From positions 1 to 64,000 of the forward strand of contig CAUJHZ010000007.1 in NCBI GenBank assembly GCA_963205185.1: a stretch of 64,000 nucleotides of DNA, read 5' to 3'. The DNA is from Planctomycetota bacterium. Lineage in GTDB: Bacteria > Planctomycetota > Phycisphaerae > Phycisphaerales > UBA5793. The notes beneath the pieces were generated by a model, which searched no databases, had not been told where the DNA came from, and saw only the letters and a list, made by a program, of their open reading frames with translations. Position numbers and translations under genes: made by a program. Each line of letters opens with the position of its first letter. The stretch's first letter is position 1. Positions 1 to 61,773 of this stretch are shown here, piece after piece.

Positions 1-115
1 GACACGCGCGATTGTCGCGCGGCTTGCGTCCCGGATGGCGTTTTCGCCGTGGTTTGACGGGAATGATGGGCTCGATCAGGTTCCACAGTTCATCATCGAG
101 AAGCGGCTTGGCCAT
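1..115 (-). CDS. IS5-family transposase, N-terminal fragment (truncated by window edge)
   Basis: On the minus strand an ATG at 115-113 opens a frame reading MAKPLLDDELWNLIEPI, then a Pro/Lys/Arg-rich stretch and HPGRKPRDNRAC up to the window edge. This is the typical start of IS5-family (IS4/IS5 superfamily DDE) transposases, whose N-terminal region precedes the catalytic RNase H-like fold. A strong ribosome-binding site, AAGGAGG, sits about 8 bases upstream of the ATG (124-129 on the plus strand). No catalytic DDE residue falls in the visible part. The element appears to have inserted into a subtilase-like gene whose 3' part starts at about 180. I am confident of the family and less so of the subgroup. 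Confidence 0.8.
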   Translation of the reverse strand, partial: MAKPLLDDELWNLIEPIIPVKPRRKRHPGRKPRDNRAC

Positions 116-176
116 GTGCGTGCCTCCTTGCACTGCACGGCCATCAGCAATCAGCGTGCCATTGTGTTAGAGGCTC
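1..176 (-). mobile_element. Right-hand end of an IS5-family insertion sequence (IS1031-like), cut by the window edge
   Basis: The first 115 bases encode, on the minus strand, the N-terminus of an IS5-type transposase, and the element appears to end at about 176. Read outward-in on the minus strand, the putative tip begins GAGCCTCTAACA, and a TTA lies directly outside it at 177-179. A GAGCC-type tip and a TNA target duplication fit my recollection of the IS1031 subgroup. The other end lies outside the window, so the inverted repeat and the second TTA copy cannot be checked. The boundary is inferred; the transposase itself is clear. Confidence 0.7.
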
Positions 177-179
177 TTA

Positions 180-619
180 CGGCAGAGGATGTGCTCGACT
201 ACGTGTTCACGGGGTGCGATCCGATCACGAATTACGATCCTGATCTTCACGGACATGGCCGCATCAACTCGTTCAATACCCTCGCGCTCGTGTCGGGCAA
301 TCTCTGGACGCGAGATCCACATCCGGGAGAAGCAGGCGTTTCCAATATCTTCAAGGCTGCCGGCGCTGCGAGCGGGGCAACCGTCCGCTTCTATTACGGC
401 TCATCCACCGGCCAGACGGCTGTGTCCGGCTGCACCAATGTCAACGTTGGCATTGCGAACGCATCGGTCCTTGGCACTGCTACGGCCGAGACGAATGGTG
501 CCGCGAAACTTACGGCCTCGGTTCCCTCTGGTTGGGCCGGTCAGACGCGCTATTTGCAGGCCGTCGATCTCTCCGATTGTCGTGTCTCCAATTTGATCGA
601 ATTCACCTTCCCCAACTGA
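180..619 (+). pseudogene. 3' remnant of a subtilisin-like (S8) serine peptidase with C-terminal module B, disrupted by the IS
   Basis: The open frame running from inside the IS to 619 becomes meaningful only after about 180. It reads TAEDVLDYVFTGCDPIT, then DPDLHGHGRINSFNTL. That resembles the end of a subtilase catalytic domain, where a G-x-GR-[IV]-N motif closes the fold. The catalytic Asp, His and Ser are missing and must lie beyond the insertion sequence, outside the window. The last 85 residues are a beta-rich module (here called B): ATVRFYYG, a Cys-containing middle, NGAAKLTASVPSGWAGQTRYLQA and SDCRVSNLIEF. The same module ends the 1000-residue protein at 47853-50855, and its tail recurs twice just downstream. 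The fragment has no start signal of its own and is probably not functional. Confidence 0.7.
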
Positions 620-639
620 GCGCAGAACGGAGAACAGAA

Positions 640-1029
640 ATGAAATCGCAGTTTATTGTCTGCTTGTTGTTGATGGCGACGCTCTGGATGAACCCGCGCG
701 ATGCGCGAGCCGACCTCGTGCTTTCAGTGGACGGAGCCTGCCCTGGCGAGATCACTATTCGATGGACAGGCGCGACCGCAGCTCAGCGCTCGGGCCTCTG
801 GTTCAGCAGAAACCTAGGGCAATTCACGCTCCCAGGCCCGTGCTCGGGGACGACGCTTGGACTCGGCACCGATGGTCTCCGGCTCGCTCGCGTGTTTCAG
901 TCAGGAGGACAAGGCGAGGGCCAGATGACGGGACGTGTTCCCGTATTCGCCTGCGGCGGCTACCTCCAGATGGTGGTGCAGGATGGCCATCCCTGCACGA
1001 CCAGCAACGTCGTGCAGATTCCACAGTGA
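640..1029 (+). CDS. Small secreted module-A protein (copy 1)
   Basis: This 129-residue protein has a signal peptide (MKSQFIVCLLLMATLWMNP, probable cleavage after DARA). The rest is a single domain, module A. Module A is marked by ACPGEITIRWTGAT, PCSGTTLGLG, FACGGYLQMV and PCTTSNVVQIPQ, with four cysteines that are invariant in all six copies in this window and could form two disulfides outside the cytoplasm. The ATG at 640 follows a GGAGA site. The stop TGA at 1027 is directly followed by an in-frame remnant of module B (1030-1200). I recognise no described family and give no function. The protein could be a stand-alone version of a terminal domain otherwise carried by larger exported proteins. 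Confidence 0.75.
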   Translation: MKSQFIVCLLLMATLWMNPRDARADLVLSVDGACPGEITIRWTGATAAQRSGLWFSRNLGQFTLPGPCSGTTLGLGTDGLRLARVFQSGGQGEGQMTGRVPVFACGGYLQMVVQDGHPCTTSNVVQIPQ

Positions 1030-1200
1030 AGAACTTCGATTGACAAACAAGGGGGCGAAGCGATTGCCGGAACCAACAGCGCGGCGATTTATGAAGCATC
1101 CGTCCCAAGCGGCTGGGCAGGCCAGACGCGGTTTCTTCAGGCGGTTGACTTGAGTGACTGCCGCGTTTCCAACTTGATCGAGTTTACCTTCCCGAATTGA
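1030..1200 (+). pseudogene. In-frame module-B tail remnant after module-A copy 1
   Basis: Directly after the TGA of the preceding gene the same reading frame stays open for 56 codons and ends in its own TGA. It reads RTSIDKQGGEAIAGTN, then AAIYEASVPSGWAGQTRF, LQAVDLSDC and RVSNLIEFTFPN. The last 40 residues match the C-terminus of the interrupted subtilase (ending at 619) almost residue for residue, so this is the tail of a second module B. There is no in-frame ATG, GTG or TTG near its start with a ribosome-binding site. It would be translated only by stop-codon readthrough or as part of a lost upstream gene. Probably a recombination remnant; see the findings for the reading-frame argument. 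Confidence 0.65.
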
Positions 1201-1224
1201 CACCAATCTCAAGGGAGTTCAGAC

Positions 1225-1635
1225 ATGCGAACCAGCATCATCCTTGGAGTGCTGGCGACGGCGATGTGCGTTGGCCACAGCGATGTGCGCGGAGTGGCAC
1301 TCGCCGGGCCGGACGATCTCGTGATCTCGCTTGAAGGAGACTGCCCGGGTCGACTCTCCATGAGCTGGGACGGCGCGACGCCCAACGAGATGTCGGCTCT
1401 CTGGTTTAGCCGAGAGCAGGGTGAGTACAGGCTTCCGGTTGGAATCTGCGGAGGTACGACTCTCGATCTTGGCCCGCATGGCTTGCATCTCGCTCGGGTT
1501 TTCAACAGCGGTGCGGAAGGGCAGGGTGTGCTTTCGGGAAGAGTCCGCCAGGCCGCCTGCGGGGGTTACCTGCAAATGATGGTCGATGACGGCTATCCCT
1601 GCACGACCAGCAACGTCGTGCAGATTCCGCAGTGA
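1225..1635 (+). CDS. Small secreted module-A protein (copy 2)
   Basis: This is a 136-residue paralogue of the gene at 640. A signal peptide (MRTSIILGVLATAMCVG) is followed by one module A: GDCPGRLSMSWDGATPNE, ICGGTTLDLG, AACGGYLQMM and PCTTSNVVQIPQ. All four module cysteines are kept, with ICGG replacing the usual PCxG. The last 35 bases before the stop and about 45 bases after it are almost identical to copy 1, while the rest has diverged, which points to a shared recombination junction or local gene conversion. AAGGGAG lies upstream of the ATG. The stop is again followed in frame by a module-B tail (1636-1806). The function is unknown; the protein is predicted to be exported and disulfide-bonded. 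Confidence 0.75.
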   Translation: MRTSIILGVLATAMCVGHSDVRGVALAGPDDLVISLEGDCPGRLSMSWDGATPNEMSALWFSREQGEYRLPVGICGGTTLDLGPHGLHLARVFNSGAEGQGVLSGRVRQAACGGYLQMMVDDGYPCTTSNVVQIPQ

Positions 1636-1806
1636 ACAACTTCGATTGACACACAAGGGGGCGAAGCGATTGCCGGAACCAATGGCGCGGCGATCTACGA
1701 AGCAACGGTCCCACGCGGCTGGGCCGGCCAGACGCGCTATCCGCAGGCAGTCGATCTGTCGGATTGTCGCGTCTCGAACCTCATCGAATTCACGTTCCCG
1801 AACTGA
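1636..1806 (+). pseudogene. In-frame module-B tail remnant after module-A copy 2
   Basis: This is a second orphan tail of exactly the same length (171 bases) and in the same frame relative to the preceding TGA as the one at 1030-1200. It reads TTSIDTQGGEAIAGTN, then AAIYEATVPRGWAGQTRY, QAVDLSDC and RVSNLIEFTFPN. A hand codon-by-codon comparison of the two tails gives 19 synonymous and 7 non-synonymous codon differences with no indel. So the sequence evolved under coding constraint, at least until recently. No start codon with a ribosome-binding site serves it. It is best treated as a remnant left by recombination between module-A and module-B genes. Confidence 0.65.
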
Positions 1807-1834
1807 CTAATCCCTGGAGAAAGGTTCACATATC

Positions 1835-2242
1835 ATGAAGAGCATCACTTTCGTCATTCTCGCGGCTGCAGTTCTTCTGTTCAGTTCGCATCGAGCAGCA
1901 CTCGCGCGATCGGTCATCGGCCCGGATAACCTCACCATCTCGATCGAAGGAGAATGCCCCGGAGCAATCACGCTTCGGTGGGAGGGCGCGACGCCGAACC
2001 GCCATATGGGAATCGCGTTCGCGCTCGAGACAGGCACTTACGTCATTCCTACGCCGTGCGGGGGCACCCAACTTGGCTTGGGCACGAACGGGTTGCGTCT
2101 CGTCGCCATTCTTCAGACCCGCCGAGATGGTCAGGGCATCGTAACCGGGACTGCCGCACCTGATTCATGCGGGGGCTTTCTCCAGGCCGTAGTCATGGAT
2201 GGCAACCCCTGCGCCACCAGCAACGTCGTGCAGATTCCGTAG
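1835..2242 (+). CDS. Small secreted module-A protein (copy 3)
   Basis: The third module-A gene encodes 135 residues. A hydrophobic signal peptide (MKSITFVILAAAVLLF) is followed by IEGECPGAITLRWEGATPN, TYVIPTPCGGTQLGLG, SCGGFLQAVV and PCATSNVVQIP. It is closer than copies 1 and 2 to the C-terminal modules of the exported proteins at 35116 and 36204, for example in GIAFALETGTYVIP. The ATG at 1835 is preceded by GGAGAAAGG. Unlike the other two copies it is not followed by a module-B tail; the sequence after its TAG shows no coding similarity. It ends the array, and a spacer of about 490 bases follows. Confidence 0.75.
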   Translation: MKSITFVILAAAVLLFSSHRAALARSVIGPDNLTISIEGECPGAITLRWEGATPNRHMGIAFALETGTYVIPTPCGGTQLGLGTNGLRLVAILQTRRDGQGIVTGTAAPDSCGGFLQAVVMDGNPCATSNVVQIP

Positions 2243-35115: not shown

Positions 35116-36039
35116 ATGTCTCGTACTTCCATTCTGGCCGCTGCGGCTTCGCTGACCGCTGCGTCGATCGTCCCGTCCGCCATCGGGCAGATCTACCCCG
35201 GCCAGCCTCATCAAGGGTGGAATGCCATTCCGTTCTGGGTCGATGAATGCAGGTATCAGCAGGTGTTTGCGGCGGCGCAGTTCGGCTCTGCGCCCATCGA
35301 GATTCACTCCATTGCGTTCGCCCCGGCGGAAACGTACAACGGCGAAGACTACATCTTCGACCAGGTGCGCATCCACATCGGATACACCGACAAACAGCCG
35401 GGCGAACTCTCGTCAGACCTCCTGACCAACCCGAGCGGGCCGATGCCGGAGGTGTTCAACGTGTTCGAGATGCGCGGCGTCGTCGAATACGGCGGAAGCG
35501 AGTACTTCTCGTTCAAGTTCCCGTTCGACGCGCCGTTCTGCTACGACCCGGGCAACGGCAACCTGCTCATCGAAATCTACAGCGTGAACACGCTCATCGC
35601 GATCGCGACGTCGTACACCTACGGCATGCCCGACGCTTCGCGTGCGTGGAACTCGTTCACCTTCGGCAATGGCACTGACACCATCGCGGCACGGATGATG
35701 TTCGAGATCACGCCATGCACGGGCGGACCGTCCCTGCAACTCGGCGGCCAATGCCCCGGAATCCTCAACATTGCCTGGAGCGGAGCGACCTCCAATCGCC
35801 AGATGGGAATCGTGTACGCCCGCAACACCGGCGCGTTCGTCGTGCCGGGCGGGCCGTGCGCCGGCACAGCGCTGGGCCTGGGCACGAACCAGATTCAACT
35901 GGTGCGCACGGTCAGCACCGGCAGTGGCAGCGGCTCGGTGAACGGCAACGCCGGCCCGGCCGCGTGCGGCGGGTATCTGCAGCTGGTGGTTGTGGATGCC
36001 ACTCCCTGCACGGTGAGCAACACGGCTCGATTGCATTAG
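35116..36039 (+). CDS. Exported protein with C-terminal module A (tandem paralogue 1)
   Basis: This 307-residue protein has a signal peptide (SILAAAASLTAASIVPSAIG|Q) and an N-terminal domain of about 175 residues: GWNAIPFWVDECRYQQVFAAA, IHSIAFAPAETYNGEDY, YFSFKFPFDAPFCYDPGNGN and YTYGMPDASRAWNSFTFG. A C-terminal module A follows (GGQCPG, WSGATSNRQMGIVYARNT, PCAGTALGLG, ACGGYLQLVV, PCTVSN). The N-terminal domain is likely an extracytoplasmic beta-sandwich of unknown role; I do not recognise a described family. AAGGAGG precedes the ATG. The C-terminal 100 codons are almost identical in DNA to those of the next gene. Confidence 0.72.
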   Translation: MSRTSILAAAASLTAASIVPSAIGQIYPGQPHQGWNAIPFWVDECRYQQVFAAAQFGSAPIEIHSIAFAPAETYNGEDYIFDQVRIHIGYTDKQPGELSSDLLTNPSGPMPEVFNVFEMRGVVEYGGSEYFSFKFPFDAPFCYDPGNGNLLIEIYSVNTLIAIATSYTYGMPDASRAWNSFTFGNGTDTIAARMMFEITPCTGGPSLQLGGQCPGILNIAWSGATSNRQMGIVYARNTGAFVVPGGPCAGTALGLGTNQIQLVRTVSTGSGSGSVNGNAGPAACGGYLQLVVVDATPCTVSNTARLH

Positions 36040-36203: not shown

Positions 36204-37124
36204 ATGTCCCGCATTGTTGCCTTGAGCGCGGCTGCGGCTGCAATTGTCGGCTGCGCAGCTTCGAGTCTCGGGCAGGTTTACCCAAACCGCCCACACGGCG
36301 GCTGGAATGGGATTCCTTTCTGGACTCCTCCGTGCGCATATCAGCAGGTCTTCGCGGCCGGCCAGTTCGGATCTTCGCCAATCATGATCCATTCACTCTC
36401 ATTCGCGCCCGATTCGTTTTACAACGGAGAGGACTACACCATCAGCAATCTGGTGGTGCGGCTGGGGTACACCGACAAGGCGCCCGGCGGACTCTCATCT
36501 GATCTGCCGAGCAACGTGCGCGGCTCGCTCACTACCGTGCTTAACATGCCGTCATTCCGCGGGATCGTCGATTCGCAGGGGCCAGACTACTTTTCGATGC
36601 GGCTGCCCTTCACCACCCCATTCTGCTACGAACCGGCCAGCGGGAATCTGCTGGTCCAGATCGATCTCGCGGGAAGTTCGCTTGGAATTGCCATCTCGAC
36701 GACCTATGGCATGCCGGATTCGACCCGAGCGTGGAATTCTTCCATCTTCGGAAACAACACCGACACGATCGCGGCACGGATGATGTTCGAGATCACGCCA
36801 TGCACGGGCGGACCGACCCTGCAACTCAGCGGCCAGTGCCCCGGAGTTCTCAATGTCGCCTGGAGCGGAGCGACATCCAATCGCCAGATGGGAATCGTGT
36901 ACGCCCGCAACACCGGAGCGTTCGTCGTGCCGGGCGGGCCGTGCGCCGGCACTGCGCTGGGCCTGGGCACGAACCAGATTCAACTGGTGCGCACAGTCAG
37001 CACCGGCAGTGGCAGCGGCTCGGTGAACGGCAACGCCGGCCCGGCCGCGTGCGGCGGGTATCTGCAGCTGGTCGTGGCGGACGGCAGCCCGTGCTCGACG
37101 AGCAACGTCGCGGCCATTCCGTAG
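36204..37124 (+). CDS. Exported protein with C-terminal module A (tandem paralogue 2)
   Basis: A 306-residue paralogue with the same architecture: signal peptide (MSRIVALSAAAAAIVGCAASSLG|Q), N-terminal domain (GWNGIPFWTPPCAYQQVFAAG, YNGEDYTISNLVVRLGYTD, FTTPFCYEPASGNLL) and C-terminal module A ending SPCSTSNVAAIP. The N-terminal halves have diverged clearly, while the module-A halves and the sequence just before them (ARMMFEITPCTGGP) are nearly identical at DNA level. Two Cys in the N-terminal domain are conserved in both paralogues, consistent with export. The gene is followed by a strong hairpin terminator at 37140. No function assigned. Confidence 0.72.
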   Translation: MSRIVALSAAAAAIVGCAASSLGQVYPNRPHGGWNGIPFWTPPCAYQQVFAAGQFGSSPIMIHSLSFAPDSFYNGEDYTISNLVVRLGYTDKAPGGLSSDLPSNVRGSLTTVLNMPSFRGIVDSQGPDYFSMRLPFTTPFCYEPASGNLLVQIDLAGSSLGIAISTTYGMPDSTRAWNSSIFGNNTDTIAARMMFEITPCTGGPTLQLSGQCPGVLNVAWSGATSNRQMGIVYARNTGAFVVPGGPCAGTALGLGTNQIQLVRTVSTGSGSGSVNGNAGPAACGGYLQLVVADGSPCSTSNVAAIP

Positions 37125-47852: not shown

Positions 47853-50800
47853 ATGCCCATCAAGCGCCGCTCGCGTTGTTCTTCGATCACTGCTTGCATC
47901 GGAGTTTCGTTCTGTGCCTTGGCGGCAGTGTGGGCGACGGGCAGATGTGCGCTGGGGGCTGGGGATGACCGATCCGATGGCGCCGTGTTGTCGCTGACTG
48001 ACCGCCTGTTCGGCGGCGGAGTCATCGAGACTCAGGCAAACGTCTTCACCAGCAGTTCGCAGGAGCACGGCGCGCTCGCGGCGACGCCCGGCGGCGGATT
48101 CATCGCGGTCTGGGATAGCAGGAGGCAGGAATTCGGCGGCTATGCCGTCGTGGCCCAGCGCTTCGATGCCTTCGGCCGGCCCATCGGCGGCGAAGTGCCG
48201 ATCAACCTGACCTTGCGCGGGATGCAGGAGCGGCCGGCCATCACCGCCACCGGCGATCAGATATGGGTTGCCTGGCAGTCGCATGGGCAGGACGGCAGCG
48301 CGGCGGCGGTGGTCGCTCGGCGCTTTGATCTCCAATTGGCAAACCCCGGCGGTGAAATCGCCGTGAACCAGACGCAGGCGGGCAACCAGATGTCGCCGGC
48401 CATCGTGCCAGACGCGGCTGGCGGCGCGATGATCGCGTGGGTGGACGATTCTGCCGGCGGCGGCCGCATCATGGCCCGCCGATTCGACTCGGCGGGAGCC
48501 GCCCTCGGTGACGAGTTCCAGGTCAGCGGCGATGAGGCGGGTGCCTGCGCCGCACCCTCGCTCGTTCGCACGACCGAGGGACTCTGCTGGGTCGCCTGGG
48601 CGCACACGGACGAAGATGGGAACCCGAATCGGATCGTCGCCCAGCAGGTGGCGGCGGACGGTTCGCTTGCAGGCGATCCCATCACCGTCAACGAGATGGA
48701 CGGCCACGATCACATCGAACCGTCGCTTGCGGCGGCTGCGGATGGCGGCTTCGTTGCAACGTGGCACGCCGCAGTCGATGGCGGCTTTGCCGTCGATGTC
48801 CGCTTCTTCGATCGCGACGGCTCGCCGCTGACCGACCCCGTGACGGTCGCCGAGCCTTCCAACGGCTGGAAGAGCGGCGCATCCATCGTGCGAGCAGCCG
48901 ACGATCAGTACCTCGTCGTGTGCAACAGCGACGGCGCCGGCGGCGACGGCGATGGGTCGGGGGTCATGGGTCAGCTCATCGATTCGCGCGGGCGCATCAT
49001 CGCTCAGCCGTTTGCATTGAATCTCAACTCAAAGGGCCTGCAGGCGATCACGGCCGCCACTGGTGCTTCGCGCGTGGTCATCGATGACGCGGGTCGTCTC
49101 GCGGTGTGCTGGAATGGCGCTTCGAGCGAGGGCGACGAGTCATCTGTCAATCTGACCGTTCGACTGCCGCGCGCGATGGCCGTGGAGGATTCGCCGACGA
49201 CAATTGATCGTCTCGCGTACGTTCCGGGCGCCGACGAAAGCGCCACGCCCATCCCGCCGATCTGGGATCCGAACCACGTCAAACTCGAGCGGCTGGGCAA
49301 CGAAGGCGGCGACGGGCCGGACTTTGGCTTCGAGGGAGTCACCAGCACCGGCTGGACGCCGCCCGACCCGGAAATGGCCGTCAGCAACGACCGCATCCTC
49401 ATCATCACCAACGGCGAGATTTCGCTCTTCGACAAGAGCGGCAACAACCTCTTCCGTGATGAAATCGAGGACTCGTTCGGCTTTTGGGGCGAAGTTGGCG
49501 CCACCAACTTCACGTTCGACCCCGAGTGCGTGTGGGACCCGCACAGCAACCGGCTCTTCGCCATGGCATGCGAGCGAAGCAACACGGGCCGCTCGATGTT
49601 CCTGCTCGCGGTTTCCAAGACCGGCACGCCCAACACGCGCGACGACTGGTGGAAATACCGCATCGACGTGACGGCCATCTCGGACAACGACATCGATTCG
49701 CCCAACATGGCTGTGGACGCCCACAACGTGTTGCTCACCGCGGACTTCTTCGGGCCTGACAAGTACCTGCTCTACTTCATCGACAAGAACTCGATCCTGT
49801 CCGGCGGTACGCCCGTTGCGCGGCATGAACTCATCACCGGGGCGACCCAGCAATCAATGGGCATTCCGGTCATGCACGACGCCGGCGCGCCGGCCCAGTA
49901 CATCCTGCAGTCAACGGAGATGACGACCAACAACACCGTCATCTTCCACGCGTGCGTCGATCCGTTCGGTTCTTATATGCGGACCACCTACACGCTGGCC
50001 GTGCCGTCGTATACCTATCCGAACCAGCCGCCCCAGCGTGGTTCGAGCAGCCGGCCGTTCCTTTTCGAGCCTCGCTTCTGGAGCTGCGTTCAGATGAACG
50101 ATTCGCTCTGGGCGGTGCATCATGTGAACTCTTCACGGGCCCGGGTGCGGTGGTACGAGTTTGACATGCGCGGCTGGCCGGGCAGCGGCAACACGCCCGA
50201 GATCGCCCAGTGGGGCGAACTCGACTACGGCGGCACGATCCACACCTTCTTTCCGAGCATCGGCGTGGACTCGGAAGGCAACGCGGCCATCACGTTCGCC
50301 CGCTCATCGCCGGATGAATACATCTCCATGTCGCGAGCGGTGCGCAAGTTCAGCGATCCGCCGGGGCAATTCCAGCCGCCGCAGTTCGTCAAGGAGAGCA
50401 CCGCAGCGCACACGAGCGGTCGCTGGGGAGACTACAGCGCCACCGTCAACGACCCGGCGACCCTGGGCTCGTTCTGGGGACATCATGAGTTCACGCTCAA
50501 CGGCCAGTGGCGAACCTGGGTCGCGCGCTACGGCGTCGGCGAGCCGCCGATGATTCTCGTTTCATCGCGCCTGGTCTCCGGTGTGCGCGGCACGCTCGAC
50601 GTCACCGGCGCCACGCCCGGCGCGCAGGTCGTGTTCCTCTACTCCATTCGCGGCCTCGGCAGCGCCTACATCCCGCAACTCGACGTCACAGTTGACATCG
50701 ACGCGCCGGTGTTCATCGGCGCCCGCACGGCTGACAGCAACGGCGCTGCGAGCCTGTCGAAGCGCATTCCGGATGGAACGGCGGGCCGGCGCATCTGGCT

Positions 50801-50855
50801 GCAGGCCGCCGAGTATCAGAAGGCGAGCAATGTCGTGGAGACGGTCATCGAATAG
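47853..50855 (+). CDS. Large exported beta-propeller-type protein with C-terminal module B
   Basis: This 1000-residue protein has a signal peptide (SSITACIGVSFCALAAVWATG). Its N-terminal half holds about six imperfect repeats of FIAVWDSR...VVAQRFDAFGRPIGGEVPIN type (aromatic, V-A-x-R-F-D, G-x-P), consistent with a beta-propeller. The second half contains conserved segments such as DPEMAVSNDRILIITNGEI, DPHSNRLFAMACERS and GRWGDYSATVNDPATLGSFWGHHEF. The C-terminus is a module B (LDVTGATPGAQVVFLYS, GAASLSKRIPDGTAGRR, QKASNVVETVIE) related to the tail of the broken subtilase. Cell-surface or secreted; no catalytic domain recognised. GAGGGGGAG precedes the ATG. Confidence 0.7.
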   Translation: MPIKRRSRCSSITACIGVSFCALAAVWATGRCALGAGDDRSDGAVLSLTDRLFGGGVIETQANVFTSSSQEHGALAATPGGGFIAVWDSRRQEFGGYAVVAQRFDAFGRPIGGEVPINLTLRGMQERPAITATGDQIWVAWQSHGQDGSAAAVVARRFDLQLANPGGEIAVNQTQAGNQMSPAIVPDAAGGAMIAWVDDSAGGGRIMARRFDSAGAALGDEFQVSGDEAGACAAPSLVRTTEGLCWVAWAHTDEDGNPNRIVAQQVAADGSLAGDPITVNEMDGHDHIEPSLAAAADGGFVATWHAAVDGGFAVDVRFFDRDGSPLTDPVTVAEPSNGWKSGASIVRAADDQYLVVCNSDGAGGDGDGSGVMGQLIDSRGRIIAQPFALNLNSKGLQAITAATGASRVVIDDAGRLAVCWNGASSEGDESSVNLTVRLPRAMAVEDSPTTIDRLAYVPGADESATPIPPIWDPNHVKLERLGNEGGDGPDFGFEGVTSTGWTPPDPEMAVSNDRILIITNGEISLFDKSGNNLFRDEIEDSFGFWGEVGATNFTFDPECVWDPHSNRLFAMACERSNTGRSMFLLAVSKTGTPNTRDDWWKYRIDVTAISDNDIDSPNMAVDAHNVLLTADFFGPDKYLLYFIDKNSILSGGTPVARHELITGATQQSMGIPVMHDAGAPAQYILQSTEMTTNNTVIFHACVDPFGSYMRTTYTLAVPSYTYPNQPPQRGSSSRPFLFEPRFWSCVQMNDSLWAVHHVNSSRARVRWYEFDMRGWPGSGNTPEIAQWGELDYGGTIHTFFPSIGVDSEGNAAITFARSSPDEYISMSRAVRKFSDPPGQFQPPQFVKESTAAHTSGRWGDYSATVNDPATLGSFWGHHEFTLNGQWRTWVARYGVGEPPMILVSSRLVSGVRGTLDVTGATPGAQVVFLYSIRGLGSAYIPQLDVTVDIDAPVFIGARTADSNGAASLSKRIPDGTAGRRIWLQAAEYQKASNVVETVIE

Positions 50856-60093: not shown

Positions 60094-61773
60094 TTACTGA
60101 ATCCGCGCCACGTTGCTGAGCACGCACGAGCCGCCCTGGATGAGTTGCAGATAGCCGCCGCACGCGCCCGACGGCGCCTGGCCGTTGATCGTGCCGCTGC
60201 CGCTGTTGCCGGTGCTGAAGAACCCCGGCGGATCGACGAGCATCAGGCCGTTGGCGTTCAGACCCAGCTGGGTGCCCGCGCACGGGTTGCCCGGCGGGAT
60301 GACCTGCTGCCCGGTACCGCGGGCGAAGAGAATGCCCTGCTGAATGCGCGGGGTGGCTCCGCTCCAACTGATTCCGATCTGGCCGGGGCAGGAGCCGGTG
60401 AGCGTGAGCCGATAGCCGCCGCCGCCCGCAGGTGCGAACTTGTAGATCGCGCTGGGGCCGACGCCTGCATCGACCGGATTGCCCCCGCCGATGTACAGTC
60501 CGCCGTCGCCATCGACCAGGCACGAACTCGTCGAGTAGTTCGACCGCAGCATGGTCCCGTTGAGATCGGTCTGAAGCAGAAGCGTGTAACTGTTGCCATC
60601 ATCGCGGAGGACGATCAGTTCGCCGTGTGGCGGATTGAAGTTACCGCCCTGCTTTACGGCGTAGATGTAAGTCTTGTTGTCGGGGGCCCGCGCCGCCGAG
60701 ATGCACGTGTGTTCGTCCGTGAGGTCGCGGTACTCCCAGAGCAGCGTGGCACTGCTGCCGTTGTCCTGGTAGCAGGCGACGACGCCGTTGGCCCCGCCGC
60801 AGTAGATGCGGTTGCCGACGACGGCCGGGCGGGCGAAGAAGTTCATTTCTCTGGTGGGATCGCCGCGGAAGCCGGGCACCTGCCACACGATCAAGCCGGT
60901 GTTCTTGTCGATAGCCCACAGCGGCGACACGTCGTTGTCGTTGAAGGTGGTGACGTAGATGCGGTTGCCATCGGCGCTCATGGCGCCGCTGCCCCACCAG
61001 TTGAAACTGTCGGGACCGCCGAGCCAGAGTTCGGTCGAGGTGTTGTCGCCGTTGTCGCGGATGGCGCTGCCGCCAAAGAACTGTGCGTTGCCGAAGTGGG
61101 CGATGACCTGCTTGCCGTTTCCGTCTTCCCACATCGGGCCCGCGGCTCCGAAGAACCCCACTGCGGGCAACGCGCGCGACCACATCAGTGAGCCCGTTAC
61201 GGAATCAACCGCGTGGAGCATGATCGCGCCGTAGTCGACGACGTACAGGTTGAGATGGCCCGCGTCGTTGAGCGCGGTGCCCATGAGCGGCGTACCGAGC
61301 AGGCTCTGGAACGCCGCGTTGGTGATCGTGTTGGTCACCGCGAGCGTGTCCTTGTCGAGCACTTTGATCGACGTGTTGCCGGCGCCGGAGTAGATGGTCG
61401 TGTAGATGCGGTTGACGCCGACGGCCACGCCCGAGTAACTGCCGTTGACGCCGCCGAGGTTCACGCTCTGGGCGATGACGTTTCCATCGCTCGGATCAAC
61501 GCGATAGACGTAGCAGCCGTCATCATCCATGCTCTTGTAGTAGATGTCGCCGTTGGCCGCAACGCAGATTCCGCCGGGCGAGGGGATGGCTACCGTGTCG
61601 TTGGTCCACGCATGCTCCACGGCAGGGCCGGGCGCCATCACGGCGCCGGCCTTGGCGTCATTGGCGCGGAATTGCGGCCAGACGCTGTTGTCGAGTTGAG
61701 CGTGCGCTGAAGCGGCGACCAGCGCCGCCGTGGCAACGAGACCGATGGCTTGCAGTCGTGGGTGTTCTGCCAT
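60094..61773 (-). CDS. Exported PQQ-like beta-propeller protein with C-terminal module A
   Basis: This 559-residue protein has a signal peptide (AIGLVATAALVAASAHA|QLDNSVWP). The propeller shows PQQ-like repeats such as VWPQFRANDAKAG, GDIYYKSMDDDGCYVYRVDPSDG, LHAVDSVTGSLMWSRALP, PLWAIDKNTGLIVWQVPG and NRIYCGGANGVVACYQDNG. No PQQ-dehydrogenase catalytic residues are evident, so this is likely a binding or structural propeller. The last 100 residues are module A (GSCPGQIGISWSGATPR, NPCAGTQLGLN, ACGGYLQLI, SCVLSNVARIQ). AAGGAGAG precedes the ATG. Surface-exposed or secreted; ligand unknown. Confidence 0.75.
   Translation of the reverse strand: MAEHPRLQAIGLVATAALVAASAHAQLDNSVWPQFRANDAKAGAVMAPGPAVEHAWTNDTVAIPSPGGICVAANGDIYYKSMDDDGCYVYRVDPSDGNVIAQSVNLGGVNGSYSGVAVGVNRIYTTIYSGAGNTSIKVLDKDTLAVTNTITNAAFQSLLGTPLMGTALNDAGHLNLYVVDYGAIMLHAVDSVTGSLMWSRALPAVGFFGAAGPMWEDGNGKQVIAHFGNAQFFGGSAIRDNGDNTSTELWLGGPDSFNWWGSGAMSADGNRIYVTTFNDNDVSPLWAIDKNTGLIVWQVPGFRGDPTREMNFFARPAVVGNRIYCGGANGVVACYQDNGSSATLLWEYRDLTDEHTCISAARAPDNKTYIYAVKQGGNFNPPHGELIVLRDDGNSYTLLLQTDLNGTMLRSNYSTSSCLVDGDGGLYIGGGNPVDAGVGPSAIYKFAPAGGGGYRLTLTGSCPGQIGISWSGATPRIQQGILFARGTGQQVIPPGNPCAGTQLGLNANGLMLVDPPGFFSTGNSGSGTINGQAPSGACGGYLQLIQGGSCVLSNVARIQ

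Follow-up and report, generated by a model that had tools for sequence, protein, structure and literature searches.

The protein-like open frames that follow the stop codons of small secreted Ig-like protein genes (A genes) in this genome, hereafter tails, are probably severed remnants of subtilase genes that end in an Ig-like B module (S8-B genes), and we attribute their repeated occurrence to short-tract recombination, which would have carried an S8-B deletion joint from unit to unit of a tandem (S8-B)-A array.

The window (the whole 64,000-nucleotide stretch analysed, at the start of contig C7) begins with the end of a multi-copy IS4/5-family insertion sequence (1..177, minus strand), which has a partial match to a DUF4096 transposase below the cut-off (E 4e-4) and near-identical DNA at approximately 15 other places, mostly contig ends. 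It interrupts the upstream S8-B gene (2-619), which is thus cut at the contig start. The 3′ part of this gene (178..619, plus strand), comprising the end of the subtilase domain and a complete C-terminal B module, was recognized by its 78% identity to the C-terminal ends of the complete S8-B copies on contigs C6 and C56 of the same genome, and the full-length protein of C6 is a subtilase (PF00082, E 1e-21). It is followed, all on the plus strand, by A1 (640..1029, TGA at 1027-1029), tail t1 (1030..1200), A2 (1225..1635, TGA at 1633-1635), tail t2 (1636..1806), and A3 (1835..2242), the last A gene, which ends in TAG and has no tail behind it. The two tails lie 606 nt apart, and a third copy with the same breakpoint, t3, is located at the end of contig C6 (C6:144173-144343). 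Further A-type or B-type modules were present in other genes of the window (35734-36030, 36816-37121, 50577-50843, and 60100-60462).

The architecture described in the earlier note was reproduced: the frames of A1 and A2 stay open after the TGA for 56 codons up to a second TGA, spanning 171 nt each, with no indel and with identical breakpoints. Its hand count proved exact, with 31 nucleotide differences between t1 and t2 falling in 26 codons, 19 synonymous and 7 non-synonymous. The near-identity that it placed around the TGA over approximately 80 nt likewise holds, as 1000-1080 and 1606-1686 (81 nt) differ at only 5 positions. These two stretches are homogenized copies of a joint block that consists of the A 3′ end, the TGA, and the first ~45 nt of the tail; the first is 94% identical to the second and 90-96% identical to the copy on C6, versus 50-70% upstream.

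Both modules were predicted to fold as Ig-like sandwiches, with a pLDDT of 97 for A and of 95 for B (the last ~110 residues of S8-B, modelled through the window copy, a close relative of the intact S8-B of C6), and profile comparison indicated that they are homologous (probability 99.3%). More than 100 places in this genome match an A query and more than 100 match a B query, and the two counts overlap because homology leads both queries to some of the same places. No family for A or for the tails was returned from Pfam and NCBIfam, Foldseek and VIA-align yielded only generic Ig-like sandwiches as structural relatives of A (VIA Z ~8-9), Foldseek alone was applied to B, and nothing was found on this array in the literature. 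The stop lies 0-2 residues after an IP motif in all 34 distinct A domain ends, which marks it as the natural C-terminus of the A family, including the TGA codons of A1 and A2. The recent loss of function that had been suggested for the locus thus fits the S8-B part and does not fit A. The tails share 79-83% identity with three S8-B ends over query residues 9-56, and the tail is the C-terminal half of the Ig-like domain closing the secreted subtilase S8-B; it keeps B only from about the fifth strand onward and so lacks approximately half of the sandwich.

Two histories are combined within each tail. Pairwise, t1, t2, and t3 show 0-2 differences in the first 45 nt (15 codons), none of them synonymous, and 29-33 in the other 126 nt, an uneven spread (Fisher p 1.4e-5 for t1-t3 and 0.006 for both remaining pairs). 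Synonymous sites in the last 32 codons are close to saturation (14.5-20 of ~23 differ) while amino acids are almost unchanged (dN 0.01-0.09), and the upstream A bodies are just as old, with dS mostly above 1.3. Identity along the units forms a sharp island, with mostly 45-70% in the A bodies, 90-96% in a joint block of ~85 nt, and 60-83% in the tail ends, so that the history of this segment differs from that of its flanks. The joint (the A 3′ end together with the first 45 nt of the tail) and the remaining 126 nt therefore have different histories. With the joint excluded, monophyly of the four tail ends relative to intact S8-B ends, and hence a single origin, was rejected (AU p about 0.002); using the last 32 codons only, the rejection was weaker (AU p 0.014-0.054), and these alignments are short (96-135 nt) with weak bootstrap support. 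The earlier proposal that A 3′ ends and B tails were joined repeatedly by recombination holds.

The same pattern qualifies the claim that the tails evolved under protein-coding selection. The low dN of the last 32 codons bears it out, but it does not extend to the present tails, since a tail evolving as one coding unit would show synonymous change in its first 15 codons as well; this change is absent, and hence the divergence predates the position behind the joint. The low dN/dS was most likely gathered while the tail ends still belonged to intact S8-B genes. In t2, a Leu has been replaced by Pro, a residue that all 26 aligned B modules lack at this position. The joint copies within this genome are too alike for decay to show either way.

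We propose that the ancestral locus would have been a tandem array in which intact S8-B genes alternated with small secreted A genes, and that a single deletion probably stripped an S8-B gene of everything ahead of the middle of B. Short-tract gene conversion or unequal crossing-over would then have transferred the resulting patch of A end, joint, and mid-B sequence to S8-B copies nearby, probably using homology in the conserved A 3′ end and in mid-B. In every converted unit the original A body and B end would have been retained, and the coding signature of the tails would therefore be mostly inherited from the time when the genes were intact. The tails themselves are probably untranslated leftovers in an operon with intact A genes. 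The deletion joint is common to three copies in the genome under study (G000) and one in its congener G003. As the breakpoint is shared, the in-phase joint is a single event, whose phase with A arises by chance in about 1 in 3 cases. No close S8-B donor for t1 or t2 survives in the assembly, in which the array is broken by the gap between C6 and C7, so donors have been lost or lie in that gap. No convincing match to the first ~25 nt of the joint was found in S8-B upstream regions, S8-B genes, or A-A intergenic regions.

The A 3′ ends merit attention in this context. Among 65 distinct A domains of five genomes, the last seven codons (1003-1026, 1609-1632, and 2216-2239 in the window) are unusually uniform in DNA, favouring AGC (56/58), GTC, and ATT (36/48), while ATT makes up 16% of Ile codons in window genes and most codons elsewhere in the A domain follow background usage. 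This codon uniformity makes the A 3′ end a candidate recombination anchor. A broader version, in which A 3′ ends are kept alike as DNA anchors with which this genus shuffles a very large family of exported C-terminal domains, present in more than 100 copies in this genome, and the joint patch is one by-product, appears unlikely, though it deserves to be kept in mind. As a separate observation, a 23-nt element, GTAGTCTCATAATCAGAAGGAGG, occurs with at most one mismatch at five sites in G000 (C6:142095, C20:43, C22:51367, C1:17806, and C56:5696; none in the control); its copies at C6, C56, and C1 immediately precede S8-B or A genes, and the element also heads the array of G003.

Congeners place the array in a wider context. 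In G003, one contig carries, in order, a UGDH gene, an A gene, a tail, a second A gene, and a His-rich protein gene. The same UGDH and His-rich protein genes delimit the array in G000, one lying on C6 and the other on C7, such that it has the same two neighbours in both genomes, and the two contigs very probably represent a single locus split in two. In G002 and G004 these genes are adjacent, with no array between them. Intact S8-B followed by A was found at C6, at C56, and in G002 and G004, where it is located elsewhere in the genome and without tails. The intact A-B fusions that the earlier note suggested looking for in relatives were absent from all loci read; G002 and G004 instead have intact S8-B then A. 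The idea of a domain-swapping hotspot is partly supported, in that the locus stands as an exchange hotspot for exported proteins. One scan of named genome records for further tails returned only intact S8-B, in two congeners.

Several other arrangements were seen in congeners. In the first A gene of G003 (C23, L065), the S8 upstream region and signal-peptide start are apparently fused directly to A (VGRATIHR...), and the subtilase was therefore lost there by a separate deletion. G004 (C38, L138) and G002 (C45, L139) have tandem runs made up of three or four tailless A genes, in which the next ribosome-binding site sometimes directly follows the stop. In G001 (C34, L133:7295-8671), a gene for a 458-aa repeat-like protein lies between the UGDH and His-rich protein genes and occupies the place of the array in G000 and G003.

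The G003 joint is homologous to that of G000 with a 2-nt indel, and the tail follows the homologous A stop over 169 nt instead of 171 nt and in another frame. Coding continuity is thus lost in this relative: the A frame is closed by a stop 20 codons on, whereas the tail frame itself is intact. The joints of the two species differ at 8 of 40 aligned sites (~20% substitutions), similar to the silent divergence of flanking genes for the same species pair (Ks 0.27 and 0.15). The last 32 codons of the G003 tail nevertheless have no amino-acid changes, against 5-7 expected under neutral decay since the split (P(0) 0.0003-0.004). Our reading is that an S8-B copy still intact until then was severed recently, in line with exchange in G000, although continued translation by another route, or selection, may also account for it.

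One such route would be for ribosomes to reinitiate at a non-standard start behind the A stop, with the tail still selected as a small ORF of its own. It would account for the unchanged codons of G003 despite the shifted frame, and a non-standard ATT (G000) or ATA (G003) is found at the same tail codon. We nevertheless regard it as quite improbable, given that t1 and t2 contain no ATG or GTG and have no TTG near the tail start, that a product would have no signal peptide and only half a domain, that the G000 copies have not diverged synonymously within the joint block, and that t2 has Pro in place of Leu. A purely vertical scenario, in which one A-tail unit was duplicated, with subsequent pseudogene decay and without exchange between the units, is very improbable: it fits the identical breakpoints and the 606-nt spacing of the two tails, but it would have required uniform divergence across units, and it leaves unexplained both the near-identity of the joint, flanked as it is by synonymously saturated A bodies and tail ends, and the polyphyly of the tail ends. 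Least probable of all is programmed or leaky readthrough of the A TGA into A-B fusion proteins with the ~80-nt block as a conserved recoding signal, since, although all three G000 tails are in frame behind a TGA with a near-identical block and are conserved as protein, G003 lost the frame while its tail stayed intact, between species the block changes about as fast as silent sites do, shuffled sequences fold at least as well as the RNA around the TGA (z-scores +0.4 to +1.3, structure not always being required), the TGA is the natural end of A domains, the opening half of the B fold is missing from the tail, tail ends are polyphyletic, and coding selection does not start directly after the stop. 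The loss of phase, the silent-rate joint, and the unstructured RNA together argue against selected readthrough, and the suggestion that the tails are made in this way is not supported.

The recombinational spread of a deletion joint resembles concerted evolution and short-tract gene conversion in tandem paralogue arrays in having a near-identity island between divergent paralogues and adjacent segments with conflicting histories; however, the homogenized piece here is a gene-truncating deletion joint and not an intact coding stretch. The tails correspond to the last part of peptidase S8 (subtilase) genes with a C-terminal Ig-like domain, but without the protease and half of that domain. They share with stop-codon readthrough extensions an open protein-like frame behind a TGA, yet this frame is not conserved between species and has no coding signature beside the stop. 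Recombination among paralogues can thus mimic selected readthrough, producing an open frame after a stop, low dN/dS, and identical breakpoints, and uneven synonymous divergence along the extension together with phase loss in a relative offers a useful diagnostic. Protein-like tail sequence here most likely records past selection and is not good evidence for readthrough. The locus also points to rapid turnover in an exported Ig-like protein array within a bacterial genus that has received little study.
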